Source of the DNA: a virus
IMG/VR virus record: IMGVR_UViG_3300032308_001403
Span: 1-35,018 of that record
Direction: 5' to 3' (one strand)
Length of the DNA: 35,018 nucleotides
The notes under the pieces were generated by a model. The model saw nothing but the letters and a program-made list of their open reading frames with translations, made no database searches and had not been told where the DNA came from. The number at the start of each line of letters is the position of its first letter. Positions within the stretch are counted from its first letter, which is position 1. The position numbers were made by a program, and so were the translations under genes. This document shows, piece by piece, positions 1-33,604 of this stretch.

Positions 1-689
1 AAATTACCAGTGAATTGATCTGAATTTCCTGTATTAAAATTTGATCCTAAAGTTATTGTGTTGGCATTGTTGTTTACCCATGAAAATGAATTCATAACAA
101 AAGAACCTATTGTTACACCGTTCTTATACCCTTTAAATATTAAACTTGTTCTATTTAATGTCATACACCAAAAAGCCCATTGGTATCTTCGTTCGGCATT
201 AGATACTTCAGGAACAAGAACTGTAGGGGCCGGAGTAAAATATCCAAAACCCCCGTTTGAACCTTGTACATTTACACCTCCTGTAGAGTCGTAGGGTTGT
301 CCATCAAAAATAAACTGATATATTCTATAATTAGCTTGTGGAGAAAATTGGTTACCGGTATTCCATATATTCCATAGTTCTATGTAACCATTTGGGGTCC
401 TAGGTCCTGTTCTTTTTGTCCAAGCACATACAGTAAAAAAATTACCAGTATCTTTTGTTCTACTGTTAACAGGCATTGAAGCATAATCATCAGTTCCATC
501 AAAAGATATACTACCTCCTCCATCTGTTGAATAAGCAGGCCCATTTAACAATGTCATATTATTTCCAACACCGCTTAAATCATACACAGTAGAACCACTA
601 CCAGGATATGATGCTAAATTAGCAGGGTCTATTAAAAATATAGATCCACTAGTAACAGCAGATCTTCTTGATCCAAAACTATATGCCAC
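1..689 (-). CDS. LamG/concanavalin-like tail or adhesin protein, C-terminus beyond the window
   Basis: An open frame of about 229 codons runs off the left edge. It starts at a GTG (687-689). An in-frame TAA at 693-695, two codons upstream, excludes a longer start. The GTG lies inside the end of the upstream fibre gene (11-base overlap), suggesting translational coupling. The protein opens AYSFGSRRSA and then shows a LamG/concanavalin-A-like jelly-roll pattern: IFLIDPANLASYPGSG, VYDLSGVGNNMTLLNGP, SISFDGTDDY, then FTVCAWTKR, WAFWCMTLNR and KNGVTIGSF. Such domains are common in phage tail fibres and bind glycans. Its place at the end of a fibre gene run supports a role in host-surface binding. 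The domain call is by pattern only; ligand and full length are unknown. Confidence 0.75.
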   Translation of the reverse strand, partial: MAYSFGSRRSAVTSGSIFLIDPANLASYPGSGSTVYDLSGVGNNMTLLNGPAYSTDGGGSISFDGTDDYASMPVNSRTKDTGNFFTVCAWTKRTGPRTPNGYIELWNIWNTGNQFSPQANYRIYQFIFDGQPYDSTGGVNVQGSNGGFGYFTPAPTVLVPEVSNAERRYQWAFWCMTLNRTSLIFKGYKNGVTIGSFVMNSFSWVNNNANTITLGSNFNTGNSDQFTGN

Positions 690-3516
690 GTATTATTGAT
701 TTTATTTTCCAGTTAGGTGTTGATGTTGATCCGGTTACTACTAAGTTACTACCTGATATAAAAGCCATAAATGTTACTCCTGAAGTATTACCAAAATCTG
801 TTGTTGAATAATCGGTATAATTAGCAGATGAACCACTCCATACTGCTATAAATGTACCTGCTCTAACATTTGCATTATTTCTTACAACGTAGTCTATATA
901 AACACTATCATATGAAGATGTCGGTACGCTACAAATTAAATTTACACTACTAGTGGAAGATAATGGTATTAAATTAGTGGTATTGTATGAAGGAGCGTAA
1001 TAACTTCCCATTAATACAGTACCATCAGAAAATGCTTCTACTACAGGTAATCCCGATGCATCTGATACTACGAATAAAGAACCTGACAATGTATCAGTTA
1101 TTGAGAATAATTCTCCTTGTGAACCTTGTATTAATAAAATAGGTTGCGCAGAACCAGAACCTACTATTACAACTCTTTGTGTACCTGAGCCTGAAATATA
1201 AACTGTTGAAGCAGATATATTACCTGTTACAGTTTGCGAACCAGTTATTACTAAACTTCCGGTTATTACAGCTGTTCCAGTATATGGGAAAGTCGGTGAA
1301 CTACCGGGAGCATTTAAAGCATAAGAAGCAGTTAAAGCATATGAAGAACTTATTGCATTAGATATAGAACCACTGAAATAAGAAGCGGAAACAGCATTTT
1401 GGGCCCAGCTAGCAGTACCAAATAGTGAACCCGTGATGCTACCACTAAAATACGAAGCAGATAACGCGTTTTGAGTCCAACTAGCGGTTCCAAATAGTGA
1501 ACCTGTTATACTACCACTAACTGTCAATGACCCGGTAACAGTATGTATATCGGTTATCGCATTTCCTATTTTTATACCAGTCGAGGTAACAGCAAATTCA
1601 TTTACCAAACCAATATCAACTGAGAGTGATCCGGTTAATCTTAAAAAAGTTCCACTCATAATTAAAGAACCAGTAATATTCTGATTCCCCCTAAATATAT
1701 TTGAACCTGTGGTAGCAAAACTTGCAGATAATCTTTTAAATTCCGCATCATTAGCCCAGCTAGCAGTACCATTTAATGCTCCTGTAATACTACCACTAAT
1801 TAAAAGTGTACCAGTTACTGCATGTATATCAGTTATCGAATTTCCTATTTTTACCCCCGTTGCAGATATCACCAATTGATCGGGTGTACCATTATTTACC
1901 GCGAAAGAACCAGTGACTACTAAACTACCTGTAATAATTGCTGAACCAGTAAATGGAAAAGTACTTCCACCACCTCCGGCTACTGTAATAGGAAAAGTAG
2001 TTCCATCACCTTTTGTAAAAGTAATAGTGTTTGAAACTACTGATGCTGTTACAAGAGCATTTGGTGTATAAGAAGCTGTAGCGGCAGTTATAGCATTTGA
2101 AATAGAACCGCTAAAGAAAGATGCTGTTAAGGCATTTGTAGCCCAAGACGAAGTACCAAATAAAGACCCAGTTATACCGCTACCTGTAACAACTAAAGAG
2201 CCGGTTATTACAGCGATTCCTACAAATGGGAATGTTGCACCTCCACCGCCTGAACCAGTATTTACCGTGATTGGAAATGTAGTTCCATCTCCCTTAGTGA
2301 ATGTTATAATATTTGAGGATACAGATGCTGTTATTAAAGCATTAGGAGTAAATGAAGCTGTAGATGCTAATGATGCTGTTGTTATTAGTGTATCTATATT
2401 TGGATTATATCTTAATCCTCCGTCTACTTGAATAAACCCCGGACCAGATGTATCCACAAATAGAACATTGTGTAATAAATTTTGCGTTGATATAGAAGTA
2501 GATACTTGAAGAGCAAGAGAAGCAGTATTAGCAAATGAAGCTGTTAATGCATAAGACGAACTAATTGAGTTATTAGACCAAGAAGAAGTACCAAATAATG
2601 AGCCTGTTATACTACCACTAACCAATAAGGAACCTGTTACAGTATGTATATCGGTTATCGCATTTCCTATTTTTATTCCGGTAGATGATATAACTAATTC
2701 TTCGGGGCCACCCAAATTTACTCCAAAGGCTCCTGATACTTGTAAACTTCCAGATATATCAACGCTTCCGGTTATAGTTTGATTCCCACGGAATGTATTA
2801 GAACCAGTGGTAGCTAAACTAGCCGATAAAGTTGTGAATATAGGATCTGTTTCTAGGTAGTAAGAAGCAGTTGTAGCTCTCGATGAACTTACGGATACAC
2901 TAGAACTAAGAGAATAACTAGACGTCAAAGCAAAAGATGAACTTACAACGTTGTTAGCCCAACTAGACGTTCCGAATAAAGAACCTGTAAAATTAGTTGC
3001 TGTAACGGGTCCCACTACAGATAATGAACTAGATATATTAACACTACCAGTTATTGTCTGTGTTCCTCTAAATATGTTAGAACCAGTAGTAGCTAAACTA
3101 GCAGATAAAGATGTAAACAGGGGGTCTGTTTCTAAGTAATAAGATGCAGTTATTGCTCTGGAAGAGCTTACAGCCACACTTGAACTTACAGCATAACTAG
3201 AAGTTAATGAATAAGATGAACTTACAACATTATTAGCCCAAGATGAAGTGCCAAATAAAGATCCTGTTATCCCGCTACCTGTAACAACTAAAGATCCCGT
3301 TATAACTGCTGTTCCGTTAAATGGAAACCCGGCCCCTCCCGCATTTAATGCAAATGAAGCGGTTAAAGCATAAGATGAACTAATTGAATTGTTAGACCAA
3401 CTAGCAGTACCAAATAATGACCCGGATATACCATTGGTCACAATCCACGATCCACTTACGATCCCGGAACCGCTTATTAAGACTGAACCTGATATGACCG
3501 GATTATATATTCTCAT
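679..3516 (-). CDS. Large repetitive tail-fibre/adhesin protein (945 aa)
   Basis: A Ser/Thr/Gly/Ala-rich protein built of repeats. The unit GSLFGT[AS]SW followed by alternating ASYALTASYA-type segments occurs seven times, with one variant (GALNGTASW). A second unit, IKIGNAITDIHTVTGS, occurs three times with small changes. This regular beta-prone pattern is typical of trimeric fibre shafts. The last roughly 120 residues (from about SYNTTNLIPL to IKSIIRGI) are non-repetitive and resemble a C-terminal domain found on marine phage fibres, with YIDYVVRNNANVRAGTF as the clearest segment. ATG start 21 bases after an ATATTTATA motif. It shares repeats with the next two upstream genes. The role as a distal fibre or adhesin is inferred from composition and position. 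Confidence 0.75.
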   Translation of the reverse strand: MRIYNPVISGSVLISGSGIVSGSWIVTNGISGSLFGTASWSNNSISSSYALTASFALNAGGAGFPFNGTAVITGSLVVTGSGITGSLFGTSSWANNVVSSSYSLTSSYAVSSSVAVSSSRAITASYYLETDPLFTSLSASLATTGSNIFRGTQTITGSVNISSSLSVVGPVTATNFTGSLFGTSSWANNVVSSSFALTSSYSLSSSVSVSSSRATTASYYLETDPIFTTLSASLATTGSNTFRGNQTITGSVDISGSLQVSGAFGVNLGGPEELVISSTGIKIGNAITDIHTVTGSLLVSGSITGSLFGTSSWSNNSISSSYALTASFANTASLALQVSTSISTQNLLHNVLFVDTSGPGFIQVDGGLRYNPNIDTLITTASLASTASFTPNALITASVSSNIITFTKGDGTTFPITVNTGSGGGGATFPFVGIAVITGSLVVTGSGITGSLFGTSSWATNALTASFFSGSISNAITAATASYTPNALVTASVVSNTITFTKGDGTTFPITVAGGGGSTFPFTGSAIITGSLVVTGSFAVNNGTPDQLVISATGVKIGNSITDIHAVTGTLLISGSITGALNGTASWANDAEFKRLSASFATTGSNIFRGNQNITGSLIMSGTFLRLTGSLSVDIGLVNEFAVTSTGIKIGNAITDIHTVTGSLTVSGSITGSLFGTASWTQNALSASYFSGSITGSLFGTASWAQNAVSASYFSGSISNAISSSYALTASYALNAPGSSPTFPYTGTAVITGSLVITGSQTVTGNISASTVYISGSGTQRVVIVGSGSAQPILLIQGSQGELFSITDTLSGSLFVVSDASGLPVVEAFSDGTVLMGSYYAPSYNTTNLIPLSSTSSVNLICSVPTSSYDSVYIDYVVRNNANVRAGTFIAVWSGSSANYTDYSTTDFGNTSGVTFMAFISGSNLVVTGSTSTPNWKIKSIIRGI
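1538..1575 (-). repeat. 38-bp direct repeat within the fibre gene, copy 1
   Basis: Thirty-eight bases here are identical to 2639-2676. Both copies encode the IKIGNAITD...TVTG unit of the 945-residue fibre protein. A diverged third copy lies near 1813-1850. Nucleotide identity beyond what the protein needs suggests recent duplication or gene conversion. Confidence 0.85.
2639..2676 (-). repeat. 38-bp direct repeat within the fibre gene, copy 2
   Basis: Exact partner of 1538-1575, about 1.1 kb away in the same reading frame. Recombination between the two would delete or duplicate a block of shaft repeats while keeping the frame. Confidence 0.85.
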
Positions 3517-6207: not shown

Positions 6208-7469
6208 TATTGTACTAGTTTTCCGTTTACTACTATTTCATCAGACGAATCAAATGTGTATCCAACTAAATTTGAATTTACCGTCCATACTAAATTGCTT
6301 CCGACTTGCGCAAAAGAAACAACAGCATTAGAAGTTACCGTCTGACCATTAACTAAGAATATAAAACTATCTAAAGATGGCGCAACTAACCCTGATCCAA
6401 CTGGTGGTTGTAATATAGAAGCGTTCAAGAAGGTGGCCGTATTAGAAGTTATCACATCAGCGTTAATAGTTTTAACAGTACTTAAATAAGTAAGTATTTC
6501 AGGGCTTACACCTCCCCCGCCGCCTCCTATGTTTATTATATTCACGTTACCCCCAGCATCAACATATTGTTTTTGAACTTCATTCTTTCCAGCGGAAGGA
6601 GCTGATGTGAACGCCATAGCACCCCCATCAACTGTTTCCAAAGTAAAAACAACTTGTGATTTAGTTAAAGTTTTAGGTTTAGATGCCAAAAATTTATTTA
6701 TATTATCAGGTATAATATACCCATTTATCATTAGACTGAAAGTAGACATACATCTCCTATCCTGACCATTTGCTATCTCTTGTATTATAGGATAACTATC
6801 GATTTTAGCCTTATAGTTGAATTTATTTGGTCTCCCCCAGTAAGAATCCGATTTAAAACTTATAGCCTCTAATATTCGATTTAAATCGCTCATAAAGCTA
6901 GTATAGACCGTACAAGTATATTGCAATGTATAATAATCCGGTACTACTATATTTTCTATTTCTTGAACTGGTATTCTATTAGTCAGTACGGAAAAGCTAT
7001 CATACATATTTTTTTTACTAAACTTTTTAGTATAAGATTGATATACATGAACTTCATTTCCGTCTAATTTATTACCCAATGTTCTATTTCTCTCCATATT
7101 ATCCCTTTTTATAGTTATTATAGGGAAAATTATTTTACCATCTTTGTCTCTATATTCGCCATTTTTTTGTGCAGAATCCCATCTTTCAGGATTTGCATAC
7201 ATGACAGGTATATTTACTTTGGTACCATTTTCTATAACAAAGGGTTTAATTTCATTATTAAAATAATATAATATAGCTTCGTCTATCTGTTCAAATCCTA
7301 TACTTATATTTTTCAATTCGTCGTCACGCAAAGAAATATCTTCGCCTCTCTTATAATTGCCGACATCAGGTTTAGTACCGGAAATTAAAGGTTCAACAAT
7401 ATCATTAGATATTTCCTTTGCACTTTTAGGTTTATTTTTTATTACAGATTTCCTTCCGGCACTCGGCAT
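6207..7469 (-). CDS. 15: gp15-like tail sheath stabiliser/terminator with C-terminal extension
   Basis: Residues about 60-285 follow the T4 gp15 plan: an early VNIPVMYANPERW segment (T4 has VPITYASKEHF), a central PIITIKRDNMERNR, then DYYTLQYTCTVYTSFMSDL and ILEAISFKSDSYWG, then the closing RCMSTFSLMINGYIIPD. In T4, gp15 forms a hexameric ring capping the tail tube and sheath and binding the neck. Here it is 420 residues against 272 in T4. The extra C-terminal part has a glycine run (IGGGGGGV) and ends in a fibre-like segment (FIFLVNGQTV ... DEIVVNGKLVQ). It sits directly after gp14- and gp13-like genes, as in T4, one base from the gp14-like gene. The family call rests on pattern and gene order. 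Confidence 0.72.
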   Translation of the reverse strand: MPSAGRKSVIKNKPKSAKEISNDIVEPLISGTKPDVGNYKRGEDISLRDDELKNISIGFEQIDEAILYYFNNEIKPFVIENGTKVNIPVMYANPERWDSAQKNGEYRDKDGKIIFPIITIKRDNMERNRTLGNKLDGNEVHVYQSYTKKFSKKNMYDSFSVLTNRIPVQEIENIVVPDYYTLQYTCTVYTSFMSDLNRILEAISFKSDSYWGRPNKFNYKAKIDSYPIIQEIANGQDRRCMSTFSLMINGYIIPDNINKFLASKPKTLTKSQVVFTLETVDGGAMAFTSAPSAGKNEVQKQYVDAGGNVNIINIGGGGGGVSPEILTYLSTVKTINADVITSNTATFLNASILQPPVGSGLVAPSLDSFIFLVNGQTVTSNAVVSFAQVGSNLVWTVNSNLVGYTFDSSDEIVVNGKLVQ

Positions 7470-7470
7470 T

Positions 7471-7962
7471 TTATCTAGATTTTATTATATTTAATTTATT
7501 CACCGAAGTTAGATGTGATTGGCATATCATAGACCATGATTCACCATATTTTTGTAAGTCGCTTTCTAAAGAATACTCGGGAGTCTTACCCATTACTCTT
7601 TGGTTTTCCACAACTAAATCTACTTCGTAATATCCTTCTTGCCAACAAACTATATCCCCTGCTTCAGGTAATAAATTTAAATTTATCAATTCGTCTCTCA
7701 AAAATCTAAAATTAACATTTCGAGAAATATTTTTACCGTAATCTTCGTCATCAGCCTGTTGTTCTTGTGATTCACATAAACAAGTCAATAAGACTGGATT
7801 GAAGTACATTTTATTAAGAGACTCTCCGTAAATGTTAGTAGCAGATTCTTTTATTGATATTTTATAGTACAAAACTTCTTGGGCTATTATTTTATTTAAT
7901 AATTGCCTATTGTGATGTCTAAAGAAACTTCTTGCTTTTGGACCCCCGTAAAGCGCACACAT
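7471..7962 (-). CDS. 14: gp14-like neck protein (163 aa)
   Basis: The pattern follows T4 gp14: an N-terminal LYYKISIKES..NIYGES (T4: CYYIPREFVKIDKVFGED), a central short NVNFRFLRDELINLNLLP, then PEAGDIVCWQEGYYEVDLV (T4: PKEGDLIYFPMDNSLFEI), then a closing stretch. T4 gp14 is a neck component which, with gp13, joins the filled head to the tail. This protein lacks the C-terminal roughly 90 residues of the 256-residue T4 version, as is usual in distant relatives. It lies between gp13-like and gp15-like genes, the same order as T4. A degenerate CTATTTATA sits in the end of gp13 about 33 bases before its ATG. Similarity is weak, so position carries much of the call. Confidence 0.65.
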   Translation of the reverse strand: MCALYGGPKARSFFRHHNRQLLNKIIAQEVLYYKISIKESATNIYGESLNKMYFNPVLLTCLCESQEQQADDEDYGKNISRNVNFRFLRDELINLNLLPEAGDIVCWQEGYYEVDLVVENQRVMGKTPEYSLESDLQKYGESWSMICQSHLTSVNKLNIIKSR

Positions 7963-9576: not shown

Positions 9577-10263
9577 ATGACGTCCAAAATACATACCGAC
9601 GATGTATACAATCAAAAGAAAATCCTGAAATCCCCAATAAAATTTAAAATAAGTTTAGATGAACCCCAAAAAGAAGTTGTAGAATTTATAAAAAGATATA
9701 AGATATCTCTTATTCTAGCTGACCCGGGTTGTGGTAAAACTACAATATCTATGTACCACGCTTTATCCGAACTTAGAAAGAAAAATAAAGAAAAAATAAT
9801 AATAACAAAACCTATAGTAGAAATAGGTACAAGTATAGGTTATCTACCGGGTCCACAAGCCGAAAAAATCGCATCTTATATGGAAAGTTACGAAACGATC
9901 ATCGATAAGATTGTAGGTATTCCTGAGAAAGAAAAACTCTTTAGAGAAGAGAAAATAATATTTAAACCAATACAGTATGTAAGAGGTAACAACTTTGAAG
10001 ATGCTATAATCATATTTGACGAAGCACAAGGGTGTTCTTTACATGAAATTATTTCTTTTGTTACTAGAGTTAGTGATAGTTCAGATTTAATAGTATTGGC
10101 TGATCCATATCAATCCGACATTAAAAAATCTGGTATATTTGACTTTATTAAAATAGTTAATAAAATCGATGAGATAGGAGTTAGACATTTAGATGAGTCC
10201 TTCCAAAAAAGATCCGCTCTCATACAGAAATTATACAAAGAATATAAGAATTACATTTCTTAA
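9577..10263 (+). CDS. phoH: PhoH-like P-loop ATPase (228 aa)
   Basis: Walker A is ADPGCGKTTIS (residues 48-58). Walker B is IIIFDEAQ (144-151). Between them are the PhoH hallmarks ITKPIVEIGTSIGYLPG, the counterpart of TRPAVEAGEKLGFLPG, and IQYVRGNNFEDA. After Walker B, FVTRVSDSSDLIVLADPYQ matches the family LTRIG...TGDxxQ motif. PhoH-like proteins are ATPases common in marine T4-like phages; some are linked to phosphate stress or RNA metabolism, but the phage role is not settled. The length is close to the ATPase core alone, with no extra RNA-binding domain visible. The stop codon overlaps the stop of the convergent homing endonuclease gene by three bases in a shared TTAA. Confidence 0.9.
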   Translation: MTSKIHTDDVYNQKKILKSPIKFKISLDEPQKEVVEFIKRYKISLILADPGCGKTTISMYHALSELRKKNKEKIIITKPIVEIGTSIGYLPGPQAEKIASYMESYETIIDKIVGIPEKEKLFREEKIIFKPIQYVRGNNFEDAIIIFDEAQGCSLHEIISFVTRVSDSSDLIVLADPYQSDIKKSGIFDFIKIVNKIDEIGVRHLDESFQKRSALIQKLYKEYKNYIS

Positions 10264-11636
10264 TTACAGAATTCATATTTTAAATTACCGGAGTCCCATA
10301 CTCTGAAATACCCTCTTTCTGTCATTATTTGGTATTCAGTTTTTTCTTTGTCATATCCTTCTTTTATAAGTTTATGTTTTGTAAACATATATCGATTAAA
10401 CTTATGATTTGATTTAACATAAAAATAACCGGGTTCTGTATATCCAATAAATTCCATTTTTAAATTTTTATATAAATTTCCCAGACTCCAATCTCTATTA
10501 GCATAAGACATAATATATTTTGGATTGTATTTTTTAATAAAAAATTGATACATTTTTGTGGCACCCCCCACAACTATTGTTTCTTTTTTGGTGCAAAATC
10601 TAGCTAATTCATAATTGTCTTCTATATGTGATAATCCCGTAGCCTTTCTTAATTTAGAAAATGTCATAACTGAAACTAGCTCATTATTGTAAAATAAACC
10701 TATTCTTGTTTTTGCAACGGTGCTACCTTGTAAATGGTTTTGATTTAAAAATATATTAGATTCTAAAGACGATATTTCTTTTATTTCACATTTTCTAGCA
10801 TATATTTTATTTTCTATTAATCCTAGTATTGATTTTAAATTAGATAAAATTATATTTTTTTTCTTCATATAATCACATTCCCATATATGTATTAACCGTA
10901 TTCCTTTTTGTTGACATTCTTCTGTCTTTTTTTTATGAAAATTTTTTTTCTTGAATAAATCACTATGAAATCTATTTCCATTAAATTCTATAGCTATTTT
11001 TAAATCTGGTAAAAAAATATCTAATTCTAAACCTGAAAGAATATTTCTATCAGATTGAACTATATTTTTGACACCTAATGTTTTCAGATATTCTACTATT
11101 TCTTTTTCGGGATTTGAAGGACCTGGGTTAAAAAATACACCATTTTCTTCTATTCTTTTAATAGCTGATTTTCTCATTTTTTCTTTTTGTTCTGGAGTGT
11201 TATACCTATATCCCGGTTTATTATTATTGTGTCCAGAAATCATTAATCTAGAATATTGCACATCTCCCTTATCATTTTTACCATTTTTAATCAATTCGAC
11301 TTTAGCTCCACAACCACAGCTACACACTGGATGTACTCCATTAAAAAAATATTTTATAAAATAATCTTTCCAATCAAACTCGTGTTTTCTTAAATGATGC
11401 ATTAAATGTCTATGAGATAAAAGAGATGAATTACATATTTGACATACAATTCCACTTACTTTTGTTTTTTCTACGTGTGTTAAATATTTTTTTCTAAATT
11501 CCCCATATTTTTCTGCATATTCATTCGAACTTATTTTATTATGTTTGTGTTGCAAATGACTCGGCATTCCACTTGCCGGTATGTCTTGTTTACAAATTCG
11601 ACAATTTATTATTGTGTTATCTTTTATTCTTTTCAT
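10260..11636 (-). CDS. Free-standing Vsr/EDxHD-type homing endonuclease with zinc fingers
   Basis: Domains in order: a C2H2-like finger (C12, C15, H27, H30/H32), a second finger (C65, C68, H81, H85), a Cys cluster (CSCGC, 105-109), then a Vsr-like nuclease core. The core has E179, D206 in LELDIFLPDLKIAIEFNG, E217, H224 and a closing HIWECDY (250-256), matching the EDxHD homing endonuclease pattern. The last roughly 170 residues (NQNHLQGSTVAKTRIGLFYN, LARFCTKKE, IMSYANRDWSLGNLYKN) are a domain often fused to phage homing nucleases. It is inserted just after gp23 and its terminator, with its own ATATTTAT motif. It is very A+T-rich (10861-10920 has 17 G+C of 60), unlike gp23. A selfish mobile gene is the best reading. 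Confidence 0.85.
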   Translation of the reverse strand: MKRIKDNTIINCRICKQDIPASGMPSHLQHKHNKISSNEYAEKYGEFRKKYLTHVEKTKVSGIVCQICNSSLLSHRHLMHHLRKHEFDWKDYFIKYFFNGVHPVCSCGCGAKVELIKNGKNDKGDVQYSRLMISGHNNNKPGYRYNTPEQKEKMRKSAIKRIEENGVFFNPGPSNPEKEIVEYLKTLGVKNIVQSDRNILSGLELDIFLPDLKIAIEFNGNRFHSDLFKKKNFHKKKTEECQQKGIRLIHIWECDYMKKKNIILSNLKSILGLIENKIYARKCEIKEISSLESNIFLNQNHLQGSTVAKTRIGLFYNNELVSVMTFSKLRKATGLSHIEDNYELARFCTKKETIVVGGATKMYQFFIKKYNPKYIMSYANRDWSLGNLYKNLKMEFIGYTEPGYFYVKSNHKFNRYMFTKHKLIKEGYDKEKTEYQIMTERGYFRVWDSGNLKYEFCN

Positions 11637-15516: not shown

Positions 15517-18500
15517 TTATTTATTCAAATTATCTGATAGTGTATGGAACGCTTTTATCACATCTTTATCTTTCTCACCATTTGCAACAGCTGTACCTAA
15601 TATCCTAGCAGCTGCTACAGATTTAACAGATTGTATAGAATACTTTCCAGCTAATACATTTTTTGCTATTTCTTTAGGATCCATATCCTGCATAGCTTTT
15701 ATATATTCTTGAACACCTGTAGTATCATTTTCCTCGCTAATTCCTTTAAATTCATAGTCGTTAACACCGGGAATATGTTTCCAATTAGAATTATTTCTTG
15801 GGTCTCTAGCTTTACTCATAACCTCGTCTTTAGATAATACTATAAATCCACGATTATTGAATTGCTTTTTAAAATCGGTAGCAGACGATTTATCTTGCCA
15901 TCCAGTTATTATCTTTTTATCTTTACCATCTACAACGTAAAAATTATATGAAGGTTTATTTAAATCTCCGGATGGTTTTTTTCCCTCTTCATATTGGGAC
16001 ATATCAGATGATACTGTGCTTCTGTTATTAGGAGAAGGTAAATTATCTTTTTGACCATAGATAATTTGTTTATCTTTGGGGGCGTAATGGTTAAATATTT
16101 TTACTCCGACCTTACCCAATCTGTTAACTAAATTCATAGCAACGTCATGCTTAGTTTGACCCATTCTTTTGACATAGTCGTCTTTATTATCATCAAAATA
16201 CCATTCATATCTCTTCATCAAATCATCTAACTTCTTAGCTAAAACGTCGGGTCCAGCTGTCATATCACCGTCTATTTCCTCATTTAACTTTTTTTTTACA
16301 ATATTTTTTATAGCTTCTTTGAGCTTTTCGGTTTTATCCGCGTCAGGGTACACTTGATTAATAGCTGAAGAAAGACTAGGGTCAGTAACTGAAAGAAGTT
16401 CTTTTTCGTTACCATCTTTATCTACATAGTACCCAGATTTTTTATCCGGGGCTATTACAAGTTTAGTTCCGTTTGCAAAATAAATATGAAATTCTCCTTT
16501 CTTATTTTTAGAACCATTAGATAAGATTCCAAATACATTAATTTTTTCGTCAGGTTTATTGCCTTTTACTACAAAATTAACTCTAGAACCTATCTTATCA
16601 CTTATGGGAGAATTGTCTTTTTCTTCTTTTTTTATTGTTTTATTTTCAGAATCTAACTCATCTGCTTTCTTCACATTACTTTTATAATTGTTTATATCTA
16701 CTTTAGGACCCATAACAGGAGAAAGTATTTTTTTAATAGAAACATTTATAGATAAATACAAGTTGCTTGAAACGAAGAATAAAGGTTTTTTATTACCATT
16801 TTTTTCTACTAAATATACTGATACTTTAGCATCATCTTCGCTTTTTATGTCGGCTTCTACTATAATCTGATTATCCCCTGATATATAATATATGTGTTTG
16901 TTTACAATAGGATAATTAAGTTTTTCACTATTTTCTTGTTCTAGTTTAAGTTCATATCTAGTAAACCTAGATTGTATAGGATTTTCTTTAGAATTTTCTA
17001 GAGTATATACGATTCTGTCCCTAATTGAAAGAACATTATTTTCATCAGATCCTACTGAAGCTGGTTTGTTACTAACATCGGGTTTTGTTGAACCTTTAAG
17101 TTTACTATATGGTTTTTCATTATCTGAAAATGTAGGATCCCCTTCTAACGGATATGTTTCCCCATTAGGTGTAACATAATAATGTTTTTTTCCATCTTGT
17201 GTACTTCTAAGTAATCCGTCAAATTCTGGCCCTCTTTCTAAGTATGTGTATAAAGGAAACACTTTGTCACCATTAGATAATTCTTTTTCATCGGGCGATA
17301 CAAAAGTTTCCGGTTTAAATTCTATTTTACCGTCTTTTTTATAATTAAAACGTACTGTTTTAAACTTCTCTCCTTTAGTAAATATTTTTTCCGGATTGGT
17401 AGTATCAAATCTATTTCCTTTAAGAACTTTTTCGGCACCCTTACCAGCTTTTGATGGGGCTTTCTTTTCTGGGGAAGATTTATCAGTTGTTACAACTCTA
17501 GTCAATTTTTTTTCACCTGCTTTAGCAGAACTGTCAATTTTTATATTATCTATAGCATCACTAGTTATCATTTTCAACAATCTATCCGTTGAAACATTTG
17601 AAAAATTATCTTTCTTTTCAGAATTAGCATATTCAATAGATGCTTCAAAAGGTTTTAATTGTGTCTCGGTTGCGTTAGTATCTTTCGGTTTAGAGATTGT
17701 TCTTACAGGTCCTTTATTCAGTTTGATATTACTTTTTATTTTTTCTGCAGCTTTATCACCGATCATAGCTGAAAAATCAAATCCGCTTTTTAATTTTATA
17801 TAATACAGTTGTTTTGAAACACTAGCTATAGATTGACGCGCTGATCTATCGCCAGATAACCCATATTTAGTACCGGTTGCAAAATCTACATTTTTAGATG
17901 AATCATTTTTAGCAGCACTTTTCACTTTTGTAAAAACAGTATCTTTTGCAGATTTTGTTTTTTCTTGACCGGGTTCTACGGAAATTTGTTCTATATCATA
18001 ATCTTTAACTATTTCCAAAAGATCTTTTATATTCACACTTTGTTTTTGTGTTCCTTCGGAGGTTTTTATTGTCATATTTATTTTTTCATCTCCGCCGAAA
18101 TGTAAATATGGTATATTTAAAGCATCATTTGGTAAGGTCACATTATCTTCCTTGTCAGTTTTAACTTCTATTTCTTTCATAGAAGATATTGGAAACTGTT
18201 TATCATTAAATAGATTTTTTTGTTTTGGTGTCAAATATACCAAAACTTCATCGTTTGAATCTTTAAATTTAACAATATAAAATTTGCTATCGGAATAAAG
18301 ATTTTGCGATTTTTTCTCATCAGCTTCTTTAATAGCCTTTACCCCAACAGGTTTTTTACTAGCTTTAGTATCAATTTTTTTAGTACCGTCAGCTTTATAC
18401 TTTTCAATACCTTTGGGAGACTTCATTTGGTTATTTGGGTCTTTTAAAGAGTCTTTTTTCTTTGAGTCTACTTCCATCGGAAGATCTGTTCTTTTAGCTG

Positions 18501-18909
18501 GTTTTTTAGCACCCGTCAAAAGTCTAGTATAATAAATGTCGTCGTTCTGTATATTTTTTAAAGCTTTTGCTTTAGCTTTTTCAACATCTTTACACAATGC
18601 ATATTCAACACGCCATCCACGCTCAAACTCATAATAATTTATTTGATCGATAGTTTTCTTTTTTTGTTCTTTATCGAAATTTTTAAAAGAATTCATCGTT
18701 CCAACAAAATCAAATTTTTTAATAGCGGATTCAGGTTTTACCTCTTCAGATAAAAATTGCTTGGATTTCAATATATGAACAGCATCATCGTAAGAAGTGG
18801 TATTGGTTATATATTGTCTAGAAATGTCATTTTTTCTTAAAAAATACAGGAAGTCATTTTTAGACATTTCTTCTTTCAATACTTTGTTATAAAATTCTTG
18901 AATAGTCAT
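15517..18909 (-). CDS. Very large lysine-rich head-cluster protein, possible internal head protein (1130 aa)
   Basis: No family recognised. The N-terminus MTIQEFYNKVLKEEM resembles the T4 capsid-targeting sequence (MKTYQEFIAEA) and includes LKE, a gp21-type (L/I)xE site. A conserved-looking N-terminal segment follows (YEFERGWRVEYALCKDVEKA, about residues 92-111), then long Lys/Ser/Asp-rich stretches. Two separated modules look folded: YWDD-like RYEWYFDDNKDDYVKRMGQ with VNRLGKVGVKIFNHY, and FYVVDGKDKKIITGWQDKSS. The C-terminus is helical. It lies between the portal side genes and gp21, the slot held in T4 by the small core proteins gp67 and gp68, but is many times larger. A prohead-core or packaged internal protein is an inference from place and leader. 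Confidence 0.6.
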   Translation of the reverse strand: MTIQEFYNKVLKEEMSKNDFLYFLRKNDISRQYITNTTSYDDAVHILKSKQFLSEEVKPESAIKKFDFVGTMNSFKNFDKEQKKKTIDQINYYEFERGWRVEYALCKDVEKAKAKALKNIQNDDIYYTRLLTGAKKPAKRTDLPMEVDSKKKDSLKDPNNQMKSPKGIEKYKADGTKKIDTKASKKPVGVKAIKEADEKKSQNLYSDSKFYIVKFKDSNDEVLVYLTPKQKNLFNDKQFPISSMKEIEVKTDKEDNVTLPNDALNIPYLHFGGDEKINMTIKTSEGTQKQSVNIKDLLEIVKDYDIEQISVEPGQEKTKSAKDTVFTKVKSAAKNDSSKNVDFATGTKYGLSGDRSARQSIASVSKQLYYIKLKSGFDFSAMIGDKAAEKIKSNIKLNKGPVRTISKPKDTNATETQLKPFEASIEYANSEKKDNFSNVSTDRLLKMITSDAIDNIKIDSSAKAGEKKLTRVVTTDKSSPEKKAPSKAGKGAEKVLKGNRFDTTNPEKIFTKGEKFKTVRFNYKKDGKIEFKPETFVSPDEKELSNGDKVFPLYTYLERGPEFDGLLRSTQDGKKHYYVTPNGETYPLEGDPTFSDNEKPYSKLKGSTKPDVSNKPASVGSDENNVLSIRDRIVYTLENSKENPIQSRFTRYELKLEQENSEKLNYPIVNKHIYYISGDNQIIVEADIKSEDDAKVSVYLVEKNGNKKPLFFVSSNLYLSINVSIKKILSPVMGPKVDINNYKSNVKKADELDSENKTIKKEEKDNSPISDKIGSRVNFVVKGNKPDEKINVFGILSNGSKNKKGEFHIYFANGTKLVIAPDKKSGYYVDKDGNEKELLSVTDPSLSSAINQVYPDADKTEKLKEAIKNIVKKKLNEEIDGDMTAGPDVLAKKLDDLMKRYEWYFDDNKDDYVKRMGQTKHDVAMNLVNRLGKVGVKIFNHYAPKDKQIIYGQKDNLPSPNNRSTVSSDMSQYEEGKKPSGDLNKPSYNFYVVDGKDKKIITGWQDKSSATDFKKQFNNRGFIVLSKDEVMSKARDPRNNSNWKHIPGVNDYEFKGISEENDTTGVQEYIKAMQDMDPKEIAKNVLAGKYSIQSVKSVAAARILGTAVANGEKDKDVIKAFHTLSDNLNK

Positions 18910-20201: not shown

Positions 20202-22067
20202 TTACAATATATTTCTTTCATCTAAAAAGTCGGCTTCTTCATTTTTAGCCTCAAAAATGGTGAGTTTTTTCTTTTTGAACTTATCATCGAGATTAGAAAT
20301 AAGGTTTTTATTTTTGAACACCTCATTTTCTAGTGCCATAGCACGAGTTTTTATTTTATTTTTACCACCATCATCTCCTCTCTTAGCGTCTTCTTTCCCT
20401 AAAGGATCTCGCCCAAAAGCTGATTTATCAGTAGTGTATATCGAAGCTTTTTCTTTAGGTCTTCCTGGGCCAGGTAGATTTTTATCTTCATCATATTCAT
20501 TTGGAATATTCTTATCTCCCTTGGCATTTCTGTTATATATTGAAGCAAGGTCATGTGGTGTGCCATATGATTCACCAGATTCCATTGGGTCATTTCCTTC
20601 TGTCTCAATTTGGTTTTCTCTATATTTTCTTTTAGCGTCTTCTCTTATCAAATCTCTTTCTTTATTAAGTTCATCATCGCTCATTTCCCAAATTTTATCG
20701 GCAATCCAATCCGTTGATCTTATTCTTTTTTCAGATAAATCTGCAGCCAACTGAGCTTTTTCTTTTAGTAATGCTATTTTTTCCTGCTCATATATAATTG
20801 ACGGGCTATTAAGACTCAATTCAAAATTTACCAAATCAGCGTCTTCATATCCTTGTACGTATAAATGTACTAAAGCTATTTTATTTAATTCACTAACAGT
20901 GATTCTTTGTATTCTTTCTATTGTTCTACCAAAACGTAAATCAAGTGCACTAATAGTAGATTTACCATTGAGTTCATCTGAATAGTTTAAAAAAGCTTTT
21001 GGAACTTTTAAAGAACCAAGAAGTAAATCTCTCAAAAACTCAACGTCTTCTATACCCGCATACTCCAATCCTTTTGTGGTATCAATTTTAGTGGTGGTGT
21101 CGCCTGGTCTAACCGGAATATAAAAATCTTCTAGCATGTTCTGAACATTAAATTTCAGATTATAATCACCTGTTTGTTGGTCAAAAAAAGGTGTTTTTTT
21201 CATTTCAGTAACCATTTTTTCCATAAATGCAGGAACTTCATTAGGAGGAATATTACCAACATTCACATAAAAAACTCTCTTTTCGGGGGCCCTCATAATA
21301 CGATGTAGTAACATCGCATCAAGCATAAGAATGTATTGTTTAAAATACTTTCTTGCTGGTTCAAGATAACTTCTACCATACGGTAAATAGTTGGTATCAG
21401 TTAATAATCTAAAATGAGCTATTTCAAAATTTTCAAATGTTTCTTTATTTTTATTTGTAGATAAAGTACCACCTGTAACAGAAATAGGGTCGTATATAAA
21501 ACGAACATAAGCGGGATTATTTAGATCTTTACCTTCTTCACGAATCATATCGTATGTAGATAATGGATAAGCGCCAGTAATACCGTATTTTTCGGCAATA
21601 TTCATTTTAAGAAAAAGATCACCGTATTTACACATCGACCGTATCCACATAGATAAGTTAAATTCAATATTTAATATATCATAAAACAGATTGTACAATA
21701 TTTTTTGAATATTTTCATTAGTACTTCTAATTTTTAATACTTCATTTGTCTCACCTTTTAAAGTAGATTCTTCGCAAACTATATCTAATATATTAGCTAC
21801 AATACCATCTGTGTCCATTACGTCATATTCTTGGTATAATTGCTGACGAAGCATTTGATAGTTCATACCGGGATTATACTGCATTCTATTACCTGCTTTG
21901 TATAATCTAGAGAACCTATCTATCATTGTATTATTAGTAGAAAGGTTTCCAAAAGACTGTATTCTTTCAGTGTCTATAACTTTTAACTGATTCCCACCGA
22001 CATTTCTAACTACCACGTCGGTAGAAAACATTCGTTTGAGTCGCGGGAATAAACTTTTGTCTGCCAT
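20202..22067 (-). CDS. 20: gp20-like portal vertex protein (621 aa)
   Basis: Classic T4 gp20 pattern: YDVMDTDGIVANILDIVCEE (81-100), NLSMWIRSMCKYGDLFLKMN (137-156), EIAHFRLLTDTNYLPYGRSY (215-234), RIMRAPEKRVFYVNVGN (256-272), then YNPSTGD-type and KVPKAFLNY segments. The portal is a dodecameric ring at one capsid vertex. It nucleates the prohead, passes DNA during packaging with gp17 and later binds the gp13/gp14 neck. It is longer than T4 (524), mostly from a polar C-terminal tail after about residue 480 (with LASIYNRNAKGDKN and LPGPGRPKEKASIY). The ATG is 37 bases after an ATATTTATA motif. It directly follows the terminase gene, as in T4 where 17 and 20 are near each other. Confidence 0.95.
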   Translation of the reverse strand: MADKSLFPRLKRMFSTDVVVRNVGGNQLKVIDTERIQSFGNLSTNNTMIDRFSRLYKAGNRMQYNPGMNYQMLRQQLYQEYDVMDTDGIVANILDIVCEESTLKGETNEVLKIRSTNENIQKILYNLFYDILNIEFNLSMWIRSMCKYGDLFLKMNIAEKYGITGAYPLSTYDMIREEGKDLNNPAYVRFIYDPISVTGGTLSTNKNKETFENFEIAHFRLLTDTNYLPYGRSYLEPARKYFKQYILMLDAMLLHRIMRAPEKRVFYVNVGNIPPNEVPAFMEKMVTEMKKTPFFDQQTGDYNLKFNVQNMLEDFYIPVRPGDTTTKIDTTKGLEYAGIEDVEFLRDLLLGSLKVPKAFLNYSDELNGKSTISALDLRFGRTIERIQRITVSELNKIALVHLYVQGYEDADLVNFELSLNSPSIIYEQEKIALLKEKAQLAADLSEKRIRSTDWIADKIWEMSDDELNKERDLIREDAKRKYRENQIETEGNDPMESGESYGTPHDLASIYNRNAKGDKNIPNEYDEDKNLPGPGRPKEKASIYTTDKSAFGRDPLGKEDAKRGDDGGKNKIKTRAMALENEVFKNKNLISNLDDKFKKKKLTIFEAKNEEADFLDERNIL

Positions 22068-22123: not shown

Positions 22124-24895
22124 TCACAAAACTAGCCAAGATATATCTTCCATTTGACCGTTAATGTTCATTTTATACGGATCATTTGTTCTACTTGGCT
22201 CACTTCTATATGCCAATGGTGTGGCTTTCCGAAAGTTGCTTAATACCGCTTTTTGGACTTCTATACCGTCTGATCTATACTGAACAGCGCTATCCCTAAG
22301 ATATAAACCTATCGCATAAGGGATAACTAAATCATCATTATATCCATACTGAGATTGTGGTTTCCCATTCTTCCATATAAAACTATTCATTTCTGAAACA
22401 GTTCTTGAAGAACGTATTATTACGCTATGTTCTTTAACATATTGTCTAAAAGCATGTAATATCAGAGGTCTTGTTTTAGTGCTGCAAGTAAACCCTGGAG
22501 TCATTTTAGATATATCATTTTCATAGTATTTAGCTATATACTCATTAACATTAGACGAATCGCCTTTAGGTGAATAATATATGTTATTATACCCCATTTC
22601 TATAATATCAGAAATAGTAGTTTGCCCAATACCTGTATTTTCAACTATTAAAAGAGCATTATTGTATTCTATAGCTAAAGATACAGCCATCCTAGATAAT
22701 AATTTTGTATCTATATTACCCTTAAATTCTGCTACTTGTGAACCAGAAAATATATCTATTACTTGTATCGCAGAAAAGTCTTGCGAATCACCTCGTGAAG
22801 TATCTACTACAATCATATAGGTTCTACCTATAGCAGCTTCTTCCCATACCCATAAATCATTGTTTGCACCCCTAGTAAGAAGAGGATTTTCAATTCTTTC
22901 TCTGTAATATTGTAAATCATCAGAATCAAAATATGTATCACCAGAATTCAAGAAATCACAGTCACAATTATGTACAACAAAATGCTCTGTAATATACGTA
23001 TGGTCTACATCTACTTCAATATTATAAACTTTTATATTTTCAGTAGAAATATCTTTATATAATTTATTGTAAATAAACCCATTTTTTTGAATTTCTTTAT
23101 CTATTCGTGGATATTCTCTTAAATCATATATAGATGATATTTTTTTATCTACACAATCTAAATCTTTTGAGTTTGCCAAAAATATTTGATATGATTTTGC
23201 AGTAGTATATTCTAAATCTCTATTATTAAATTTTGCTATTTTTTCAGGTTTTGTATTAATATATAACCCGTAAACCCCCATACCATTTAAAATAAATTTT
23301 ACATCATATAATAAATTTATAGATGTTGTAGTAAATCCTTTTTTATATTTTTTTAATACGCATCCATCTCCTTTGAATATACCGTCAATAACCCCTTTCG
23401 CATATTCCATATTCATATTTTCATAAGAAAGAGACGATAATTTTTTAGAATAACAATCATTACCTTCTGTTAAAAGTCCAATTAATCCTGAAAATATTTG
23501 AGAACAAAAGTCAAGATTTGCACCATTATTATTATTTTTTTTATGAATTTTAGCGTCAATATTAAATCTTTTTTTTATTATATCGCTTATATCCGCGGGC
23601 CAATCATTTAACTCTGTTTTATAATTAAAACTAAATGTTACTCTATTTTGTACTTTTGATCCCTCGGCCAAGTATAATCCGACGATCAACCCGAGATTAT
23701 AATCTAATTCTATAATTTTTGGAAACCTTTTTTTATGTTTTCTATCATTTACATAAAAATATTCTCCATCTTCAACAATTTTAAAAAATGGTGATTTTAT
23801 TAAATTATTTATCGAAACATACTTTATTTTTTCTTTTAAAAATTTATTATTAACTACGCTTGGAAGCATTTGTTTGTTTTCAATTTCGGCAATAGGAACC
23901 CAATTGTTTTCTTTTAAAAAAGGATGATTTTCAGTAACAAATCTTTTTATAGGATTTACAGAAGAATGTATTGTATATCCAGATTCTACTTCATGTGACA
24001 TGGTATTCAATACTTTTCTAAAAACTCCAGTATGAGACAAAACTTCATCACCTACAACAATTTCAGATATTTTAATTAATCCTCGTTTTGTATATATTCT
24101 GGTATCACCTTCAAAGCATTCCTGCGCTGCTAATTTAGCTCCTAATTCTCTATCCTGAGCATCTCTCCACGCTTGGTTTCTTTCTGGATGTAAGCTCCAC
24201 GGAAGTCTAACAGGTATAAAATCATTATCTTGTAATTCTGCGTCTATCCATTGTTTATTAAACCAGTTAGAAACACCATTTGGAGTAGATAAAACTATAG
24301 CTTGTCCACCGGTAGCCAATGTTTGTTGCGCTGAACCCCAAAGTTCATCAGCATTATCTATAAATGCTGCTTCATCTAATATCAAAACGTTAGCTGTAAT
24401 ACCTCTAGCACTATCCGATGCTCCAGACGCTGCTTTAATTTTTGAACCATTCTTTAGAACCAATGATAATTTATTGTCTTCTAATGCTTCTGTTGAACCT
24501 TCTCTTAACCAAGATGGTAGATTTTTATATCCAAATCTAACTTTATCTACTATATTTTTAGCTTTTTCTTGTGTTGGCGCCAGAGCTAATATTGATTGGT
24601 CTTTTTTAAATATCAGGAGCCATAACGCATATCCAGCACATAAAGTAGTTATACCTAATTGTCTAGATTTTAATATTAATAAGCGGTCTTTAGTATGAAA
24701 TAAGTTTAGTAACTGAGACTGGAATTGATATAACTCAAATAGAGATCTGCCTTTAGAAGTCGTCTGAATAAAGACGTATTTCTTCATAAAGTATATTGGG
24801 CTTTTAGCGCATTTTTCGTATTCGGCTTTTATTATATCTTTTATAGAAAAATTTTGGGCTTCTGACATATTTTTTATTTTAGTCTCAATTTCCAA
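22124..24895 (-). CDS. 17: gp17-like terminase large subunit, interrupted by an intein (923 aa precursor)
   Basis: The ATPase part has the terminase P-loop LILKSRQLGITT (about 73-84) and Walker B LILDEAAFID (171-180), followed by LSTPNGVSNWFNKQW. The nuclease part has TYMIVVDTSRGD (D698), ALLIVENTGIGQT (E752) and YGYNDDLVIPYAI (D854/D855), the three-acid RNase H-like set. Residues 260-643 are an in-frame intein, so the spliced enzyme is 539 residues, near T4 gp17 (610). gp17 docks on the portal, hydrolyses ATP to drive DNA into the head and cuts the concatemer. An alternative start at M10 (24868, MSEAQNFSIKD) would remove a 22-base overlap with the upstream gene and may be the true one. No ATATTTAT motif precedes it, so it probably shares a transcript with upstream genes. 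Confidence 0.95.
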   Translation of the reverse strand: MEIETKIKNMSEAQNFSIKDIIKAEYEKCAKSPIYFMKKYVFIQTTSKGRSLFELYQFQSQLLNLFHTKDRLLILKSRQLGITTLCAGYALWLLIFKKDQSILALAPTQEKAKNIVDKVRFGYKNLPSWLREGSTEALEDNKLSLVLKNGSKIKAASGASDSARGITANVLILDEAAFIDNADELWGSAQQTLATGGQAIVLSTPNGVSNWFNKQWIDAELQDNDFIPVRLPWSLHPERNQAWRDAQDRELGAKLAAQECFEGDTRIYTKRGLIKISEIVVGDEVLSHTGVFRKVLNTMSHEVESGYTIHSSVNPIKRFVTENHPFLKENNWVPIAEIENKQMLPSVVNNKFLKEKIKYVSINNLIKSPFFKIVEDGEYFYVNDRKHKKRFPKIIELDYNLGLIVGLYLAEGSKVQNRVTFSFNYKTELNDWPADISDIIKKRFNIDAKIHKKNNNNGANLDFCSQIFSGLIGLLTEGNDCYSKKLSSLSYENMNMEYAKGVIDGIFKGDGCVLKKYKKGFTTTSINLLYDVKFILNGMGVYGLYINTKPEKIAKFNNRDLEYTTAKSYQIFLANSKDLDCVDKKISSIYDLREYPRIDKEIQKNGFIYNKLYKDISTENIKVYNIEVDVDHTYITEHFVVHNCDCDFLNSGDTYFDSDDLQYYRERIENPLLTRGANNDLWVWEEAAIGRTYMIVVDTSRGDSQDFSAIQVIDIFSGSQVAEFKGNIDTKLLSRMAVSLAIEYNNALLIVENTGIGQTTISDIIEMGYNNIYYSPKGDSSNVNEYIAKYYENDISKMTPGFTCSTKTRPLILHAFRQYVKEHSVIIRSSRTVSEMNSFIWKNGKPQSQYGYNDDLVIPYAIGLYLRDSAVQYRSDGIEVQKAVLSNFRKATPLAYRSEPSRTNDPYKMNINGQMEDISWLVL
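22967..24118 (-). mobile_element. Intein with LAGLIDADG endonuclease domain inside gp17 (384 aa)
   Basis: It begins at C260 with CFEGDTRIYTKRGLIKISEI (splicing block A). Block B is TENHPFL (T321, H324). Two LAGLIDADG motifs follow: LGLIVGLYLAEG (401-412) and AKGVIDGIFKGDG (499-511). It ends VDVDHTYITEHFVVHN (block F and G, H642 and N643), with C644 as the first C-extein residue. All splicing residues are present, so protein splicing should be active. It sits between AAQE and CDCDF in the link between the ATPase and nuclease parts of the terminase. Excision gives a continuous gp17 sequence. The two-motif nuclease indicates a mobile, homing intein. Intein function is by motif; activity is untested. 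Confidence 0.95.
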
Positions 24896-33144: not shown

Positions 33145-33176
33145 CAAAGATACGGAAATATTTAAGTTATACCAAA
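33145..33176 (-). promoter_or_regulatory. Bacteroidota-type promoter for the primase operon
   Basis: Minus-strand TTTG (33173-33176), then 20 bases, then TATCTTTG (33145-33152). This fits the Bacteroidota -33 TTTG / -7 TAnnTTTG consensus, with the usual spacing. It lies just before the primase ATG (33137). The -33 box overlaps the end of the GIY-YIG gene. Confidence 0.8.
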
Positions 33177-33604
33177 TCTTTTTTGAAAAATTTACCTAAT
33201 ATATTAGAACAGTAGCAATTATCTGACTCTAAACATCCTTCTAGTATCTGATGCCTGAGTTCTTGGTAGGTTGTTTGTTTTTTATTAAAGCAAATATATA
33301 TTATTTCTCTAATAAAAAGATCTTTCCCGTATTTTTTTATATCTTCTTTTAATACTGGCTCAGAACCGTAGTATGACATCCAATCACTCTCTTTTATTAC
33401 TAACTTCTTTTTAGGAACACGTCCTTTACCTTTATATTCTAAAATCTCTTTTTTTGTTAAAGGGATATTTCTCTCAGAATATATATTTTTTTTACCTATA
33501 TAAAATTTACCAGTTTCTTTATGAGTTATTTTGTATATAAAAGCGTGAATATGCTCAGGTAAATCTAATACAGATTCCACCTTTTTATTTTTGTAAAACC
33601 ACAT
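33167..33604 (-). CDS. GIY-YIG-type nuclease-like protein (145 aa)
   Basis: HAFIYKITHKETGKFYIGKK (about 19-38) matches the GIY-YIG start (IYKI ... KFYIGKK), followed by the segment DWMSYYGSEPVLKEDIKKYG with a family-typical W..YYGS. Later, FIREIIYICFNKKQTTYQEL and the closing CYCSNIL complete the common phage GIY-YIG pattern. Phage members include homing endonucleases and host-DNA-degrading nucleases; which one this is cannot be told. The ATG overlaps the stop of the upstream small structural gene by one base (TAATG), so it is co-translated with a structural operon rather than inserted with its own promoter. No zinc-finger DNA-binding domain is attached. Confidence 0.72.
   Translation of the reverse strand: MWFYKNKKVESVLDLPEHIHAFIYKITHKETGKFYIGKKNIYSERNIPLTKKEILEYKGKGRVPKKKLVIKESDWMSYYGSEPVLKEDIKKYGKDLFIREIIYICFNKKQTTYQELRHQILEGCLESDNCYCSNILGKFFKKDLV

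Follow-up and report, generated by a model that had tools for sequence, protein, structure and literature searches.

Inteins in phage terminase genes are common. The terminases of mycobacteriophages carry them at seven sites, and several of the inteins TerL1-a to -e, TerL6-f and Pham3880-g splice and encode active endonucleases (PMC5050341). Further terminase inteins are described in crAss-like phages (PMC7886860), in Campylobacter phage IBB_35 (PMC3322345), in Salmonella phage Mooltan (PMC6486243) and, with LAGLIDADG, in the Klebsiella phages RaK2 and K64-1 (PMC5259590). A separate class is formed by the split inteins AceL-TerL and GOS-TerL, with N-terminal parts of 25 and 37 residues, respectively (PMC11766414). 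In architecture, the intein described below resembles TliVMA and PhoVMA (PMC8966425; structures 7qsu and 7qst) as well as PI-SceI, all of which combine a HINT splicing domain with a LAGLIDADG endonuclease; the host gene of these three is VMA, encoding a subunit of a proton-pump ATPase, and their identity to our intein is 12–16% in structural alignments. PhoVMA has naturally lost its catalytic acids (PMC8966425), as have some relatives of the intein studied here.

The DNA under analysis, referred to as the window, is an IMG/VR virus record of 35,018 bases. It displays a minus-strand T4-like head and packaging cluster encoding the major head protein, the head maturation protease, the portal and the large terminase (TerL). 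The TerL reading frame (22124–24895, minus strand; 923 residues counted from a TTG start) is of the T4 gp17 type, with an ATPase and a nuclease half (phrog_2, 9.6e-42; gp17 in PDB entry 3ezk, 1.7e-28), and the portal, protease and major head genes close by lend support to this family assignment. Among annotated phages, the nearest TerL is that of Flavobacterium phage immuto. Residues 260–643 of the frame constitute an in-frame insert of 1,152 bases without a stop codon. The features of the locus, all on the minus strand, are:

24119–24868, minus strand: ATPase half of TerL (N-extein), counted from the probable ATG, ending in LAAQE
22967–24118, minus strand: intein of 384 residues, its HINT splicing domain enclosing a LAGLIDADG endonuclease
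24116–24118, minus strand: Cys1, the N-terminal splice nucleophile, invariant in 14 of 14 aligned inteins
23924–23935, minus strand: Block B, TENH, with T62 and H65 of the intein, both invariant in the aligned inteins
23660–23686, minus strand: LAGLIDADG motif 1, IVGLYLAEG, with the presumed catalytic acid E152 at 23663–23665
23363–23389, minus strand: LAGLIDADG motif 2, IDGIFKGDG, with the presumed catalytic acid D251 at 23366–23368
22967–22972, minus strand: Block G, His383-Asn384, at the C-terminal splice junction
22964–22966, minus strand: Cys+1, the second nucleophile, with which the C-extein begins
22127–22966, minus strand: TerL C-extein (nuclease half), beginning with CDCDF; stop codon at 22124–22126
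20202–22067, minus strand: portal (gp20) gene, without interruption in the window

Translation of TerL most likely begins at an ATG (24868) that lies nine codons downstream of the TTG; this position aligns with the starts of two relatives (contigs L003 and L009) and leaves the upstream gene without overlap. An insert-free or ligated TerL would consequently comprise 530 residues; the 539 residues given in an earlier, sequence-only reading of this DNA have to be amended.

Several neighboring features are recorded as observations in their own right. The TerL Walker A region (24644–24667, minus strand) reads KSRQLGITT. The usual Walker A lysine is absent in the window and its close relatives, which have GITT or GIST in place of the GKTT of T4, with a lysine just before SRQ instead. 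Adjoining the major head gene is a 458-residue protein of the homing/HNH endonuclease family (10260–11636, minus strand; phrog_3339, 2.5e-105). A SegE-like GIY-YIG endonuclease is encoded at 33167–33604, minus strand (Pfam PF19835, 1.8e-25; the best PHROG is named NAD synthetase). Two frames of the head/tail cluster (15517–18909 and 679–3516, minus strand; 1,130 and 945 residues) have no confident Pfam or PHROG match.

The coordinates, length and open frame of the insert as first proposed all hold, and so do the splicing residues C260, T321/H324, H642, N643 and C644 (residue numbers count from the TTG). Both LAGLIDADG motifs claimed for the insert were found as well, with E152 and D251 intact; we take these two to be the catalytic acids from their place in the motif. 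Cys1 is present in the window intein and in every same-site relative, and H383, N384 and Cys+1 stand at the C-terminal junction of the window. The intein matches LAGLIDADG_3 with 34.0 bits (curated cut-off 22.5) and TIGR01443, intein_Cterm, with 19.3 bits (curated cut-off 15.6); matches to TIGR01445 (N-terminal block), Pfam Intein_splicing and Hint_2 are below their curated cut-offs. As the first two matches exceed their cut-offs and a homologous insert occurs at the identical position in 23 other contigs, the insert is not a product of chance. Its G+C content is 25%, versus 33–34% in both flanks, and no repeats judged to be relevant flank the insert.

An AlphaFold2 model of the intein, computed from 14 window and locus sequences as input, reaches a pLDDT of 89.1 and a pTM of 0.90. 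Its HINT fold matches solved inteins; Foldseek ranks TliVMA, an endonuclease-bearing intein, highest (4.5e-17), followed by PI-SceI, PhoVMA, PI-PkoII, PI-PfuI and the free nuclease I-DmoI. A profile of seven intein relatives run against PDB sequences finds the gp41-1 intein and, weakly, PI-SceI and I-DmoI; the Cat-TerL chain 6dsl is absent from the PDB matches of the window intein. Sequence analysis thereby confirms the insert as a class 1 intein with a two-motif LAGLIDADG endonuclease, for which splicing is predicted.

By alignment, the junction corresponds to about E351/H352 of T4 gp17, close to the flexible hinge described for this protein (PMC3012670). The site had been placed in the link between the ATPase and nuclease halves; it does adjoin the linker, but falls where the ATPase half ends. 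When gp17 is divided at the linker, ATPase and nuclease functions persist and translocation is abolished (PMC3012670), from which we infer that an unspliced intein near this position would block packaging.

A related intein is found at the exact junction AAQE/CDCDF in 23 further IMG/VR contigs, namely 22 contigs and the fragment L017. Together with the window and leaving this fragment aside, the same-site set comprises 13 lineages. All homologues, searched for with the intein alone and as alignments, have junctions of the form QE/C and HN/CD. The nearest homologous intein (L004/L009) is 53% identical to that of the window. No near-identical copy was found in a different phage background, contig L002, 99.9% identical over 7.9 kb, representing the phage of the window itself. 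Outside of terminases only weak matches appear, with 22–26% identity in the longer IMG/VR sequences and mostly below 30% in phage records, and none of them is informative. The search of bacterial genomes yields two weak matches, one of which, L217, is a short unrelated protein with a HINT domain.

Intein-free alleles with an uninterrupted site exist. TerL reads straight through the site in contig L003 (about 66% identical to the window overall, 73% in the N-terminal half), in Flavobacterium phage immuto, in Microcystis phage Mel-JY01 and in a huge-phage contig. The prediction that joining the flanks restores a continuous gp17 at AAQE/CDCDF agrees with L003, immuto and Mel-JY01, and the comparison with insert-free relatives proposed at the time now extends to at least 71 with a clean, uninterrupted TerL at the site. 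A search with the N-extein, which is blind to occupancy, lists among its matches 71 empty sites, one split intein, no intein of the window type and 8 sites that are not assessable, so that the sample consists of 72 assessable relatives among the matches listed and the true frequency is uncertain. A non-redundant TerL set holds, among the matches listed, 82 empty genes, 12 with an intein and one with a split intein, and is biased in both directions (the A2 pattern AA[QR]ECDC favors empty genes, the A3 search favors inteins). The target DNA is strongly conserved among empty relatives, with the consensus GCAGCACAAGAA/TGTGATTGTGATTTT. Given 23 same-site contigs as against at least 71 relatives with a clean TerL, the intein is therefore optional, old and patchily distributed.

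The exact site QE/CDCD looks undescribed. The sequence-only reading knew of no intein there, which is consistent with our search of 50,697 annotated phage records and the literature, InBase and nr lying outside this search; inteins two residues away are known. With the window intein as query, no TerL is matched in the 50,697 records, and no mycobacteriophage terminase is among the matches. The mycobacteriophage inteins reside in other terminase families and at other sites, Pham3880 lacking a P-loop. Mooltan, RaK2 and K64-1 likewise carry inteins in a T4-type TerL; these, however, sit in Walker A between GK and TT, about 180 residues upstream of the window site. In IBB_35, TerL has one break around the Walker A region and another near model position 154, but is unbroken across the site of the window.

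AceL-TerL, GOS-TerL and Cat-TerL (PMC11766414; structure 6dsl) share with the window intein the location in large terminase genes from aquatic metagenomes. They are split and have a short N-terminal part (25–37 residues), whereas the window intein is continuous, bears a nested LAGLIDADG nuclease and lies at QE/CDCD. It does not fall into the AceL/GOS-TerL class, being continuous and at the QE/C site rather than split before the second cysteine (QECD/C). A member of that class is found in contig L206 (3986–6739), where a fractured TerL includes a 37-residue N-intein, a separate reading frame, which may encode a nuclease, and a C-intein at QECD/CDFL that matches the consensus intein CatC (1.7e-12). 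This is a split intein of the AceL/GOS-TerL type, located two residues downstream of the window site; judging from family membership, AceL and GOS presumably occupy the site of L206.

In the TerL tree, intein presence changes by gain or loss at least 7 times; with starred branches alone, the minimum is 4. The trees of intein and N-extein agree at well-supported forks, and the groups window/L009/L112, L113/L121, L115/L118 and L114/L116/L117 are well supported in both. Transfer between distant terminases was considered as a candidate and set aside, no clear case being seen at the supported forks; nor does the tree comparison bear out a misplaced L112 intein. The agreement speaks for prolonged vertical inheritance accompanied by losses, rather than for transfer that was frequent and recent. 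Most simply, these sequences would reflect an old intein that has mostly been passed down together with TerL and has frequently been lost, and that may have been gained locally.

Relatives also carry inserts in the portal (gp20) gene, at differing places in five lineages (L003, L119, L122/L123/L124, L125/L126 and L116). An HNH-type portal intein of 1,296 bases is present in L123 (about 6281–7576) and absent from L120 (at about 6281), the two contigs being 99.2–99.5% identical on both sides; the junction IIADE/CTLKN of L120 corresponds to IIADE[CLGAD...YTHN]CTLKN in L123. Portal inteins at three further positions are:

L003, 6647–9769: portal intein, HNH-like
L119, 6092–9106: portal intein, HNH-like
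L125, 5929–8880: portal intein, LAGLIDADG type with GGG as first motif

Portal inserts are more common along with a TerL intein (3/11 versus 1/65; Fisher p 0.009, related lineages not being independent).

A set of six contigs (L120–L124 and L127) harbors near-identical TerL inteins:

L120, L121, L123 and L127, 4001–5104 in each: TerL intein
L122, 179–1282: TerL intein
L124, 2965–4068: TerL intein

These inteins differ at four codons only, namely residue 30 (T/I), one silent position, E152K and D250G. L122 retains both catalytic acids; L120, L121 and L127 have K152, and L123 and L124 have G250. An intact allele thus occurs alongside two distinct dead ones in a single near-identical phage population. 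The catalytic acids account for two of the three amino-acid changes among 368 codons, for which random chance is about 9e-5, a figure noticed post hoc in a small sample and affected by a possible common source of the contigs. In the same comparison, the counts of silent and amino-acid changes are 9 and 2 for the TerL exteins and 1 and 3 for the intein. The same two acids have been lost independently elsewhere, one through D to G in L116/L013, the other through E to K in L125/L126, and all of these losses are single-base changes. L116 and L013 themselves differ by two bases in 5 kb, and both differences alter an amino acid of the endonuclease region.

Loss of nuclease function with the splicing residues kept, as it appears from these sequences, would fit the homing-cycle model (PMC8966425), and the clustering of changes on the two catalytic residues may point to selection against cleavage. 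That selection acts against nuclease activity while the intein itself persists, the dead element perhaps being reused for DNA binding or for blocking active copies, is a speculation that we regard as quite improbable.

For the window itself, we consider it very probable that a class 1 intein with a LAGLIDADG homing endonuclease resides in the conserved TerL motif AAQE/CDCDF of a T4-related phage, as a selfish and tolerated element that does not regulate packaging. This assessment draws on its anatomy, its same-site homologues, the empty sites and the intact catalytic residues, all evident at the level of sequence; splicing, DNA cutting and homing are activities that the window intein would be expected to have. 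After translation, the intein would excise itself via the Cys1/Asn384/Cys+1 pathway and join the halves into a TerL of 530 residues. In a co-infecting phage whose TerL gene lacks the insert, the endonuclease of the intein would cleave that gene at the AAQE/CDCDF motif, and repair of the cut gene would copy the intein in.

A reading of the insert as a native TerL domain or extension, which its in-frame position and unbroken reading frame might allow, is almost inconceivable, because fold, motifs, precise empty sites and the flanking Cys and His-Asn-Cys residues all fit an intein. Somewhat closer to the data is a copy that splices and is inherited vertically with TerL, its endonuclease being inactive or without targets, so that homing would have ceased to matter. 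The congruence of intein and extein trees at supported forks and the point losses of catalytic acids in sister lineages speak for it; yet E152 and D251 are both intact in the window, most lineages keep both acids, and the plentiful vacant sites imply that the target is not saturated, which makes this reading unlikely.

The sequence-only reading had further proposed that the intein could serve as a timing check on packaging. Spelled out, this would be a domesticated switch whose splicing is delayed to late infection so that early packaging is prevented. The site does lie in an essential motor protein whose assembly the intein would block until removed, complex formation of mycobacteriophage TerL has been argued to need splicing (PMC5050341), and the element persists over long divergence, as the 53% identity to L009 illustrates. 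A need for splicing before TerL assembles is, however, true of any intein at this site and no evidence of regulation. The proposal sits poorly with relatives that package without the intein (71 of 72 assessable among the matches listed are empty, the remaining one having a different, split intein, and the close relative L003 is empty too). No feature of conditional splicing was identified, and the intact endonuclease of the window copy is what mobile elements, unlike domesticated ones, should have. We therefore see no support for a timing switch, rate it as highly improbable, and retain the selfish, tolerated homing intein as the preferred reading.

The window intein is ordinary in kind and apparently new in site. 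It would add an apparently undescribed homing-intein site to the T4-type packaging motor, with a diverged family of alleles and many empty relatives, and one TerL motif has been struck by members of two distinct intein families, at positions that lie two residues from each other. The nuclease-intact copy in the window, with a known empty target site, makes homing directly testable. Moreover, sister phages with either an intact or a disabled nuclease allele coexist in one near-identical population and may render the homing cycle of an intein observable in nature.
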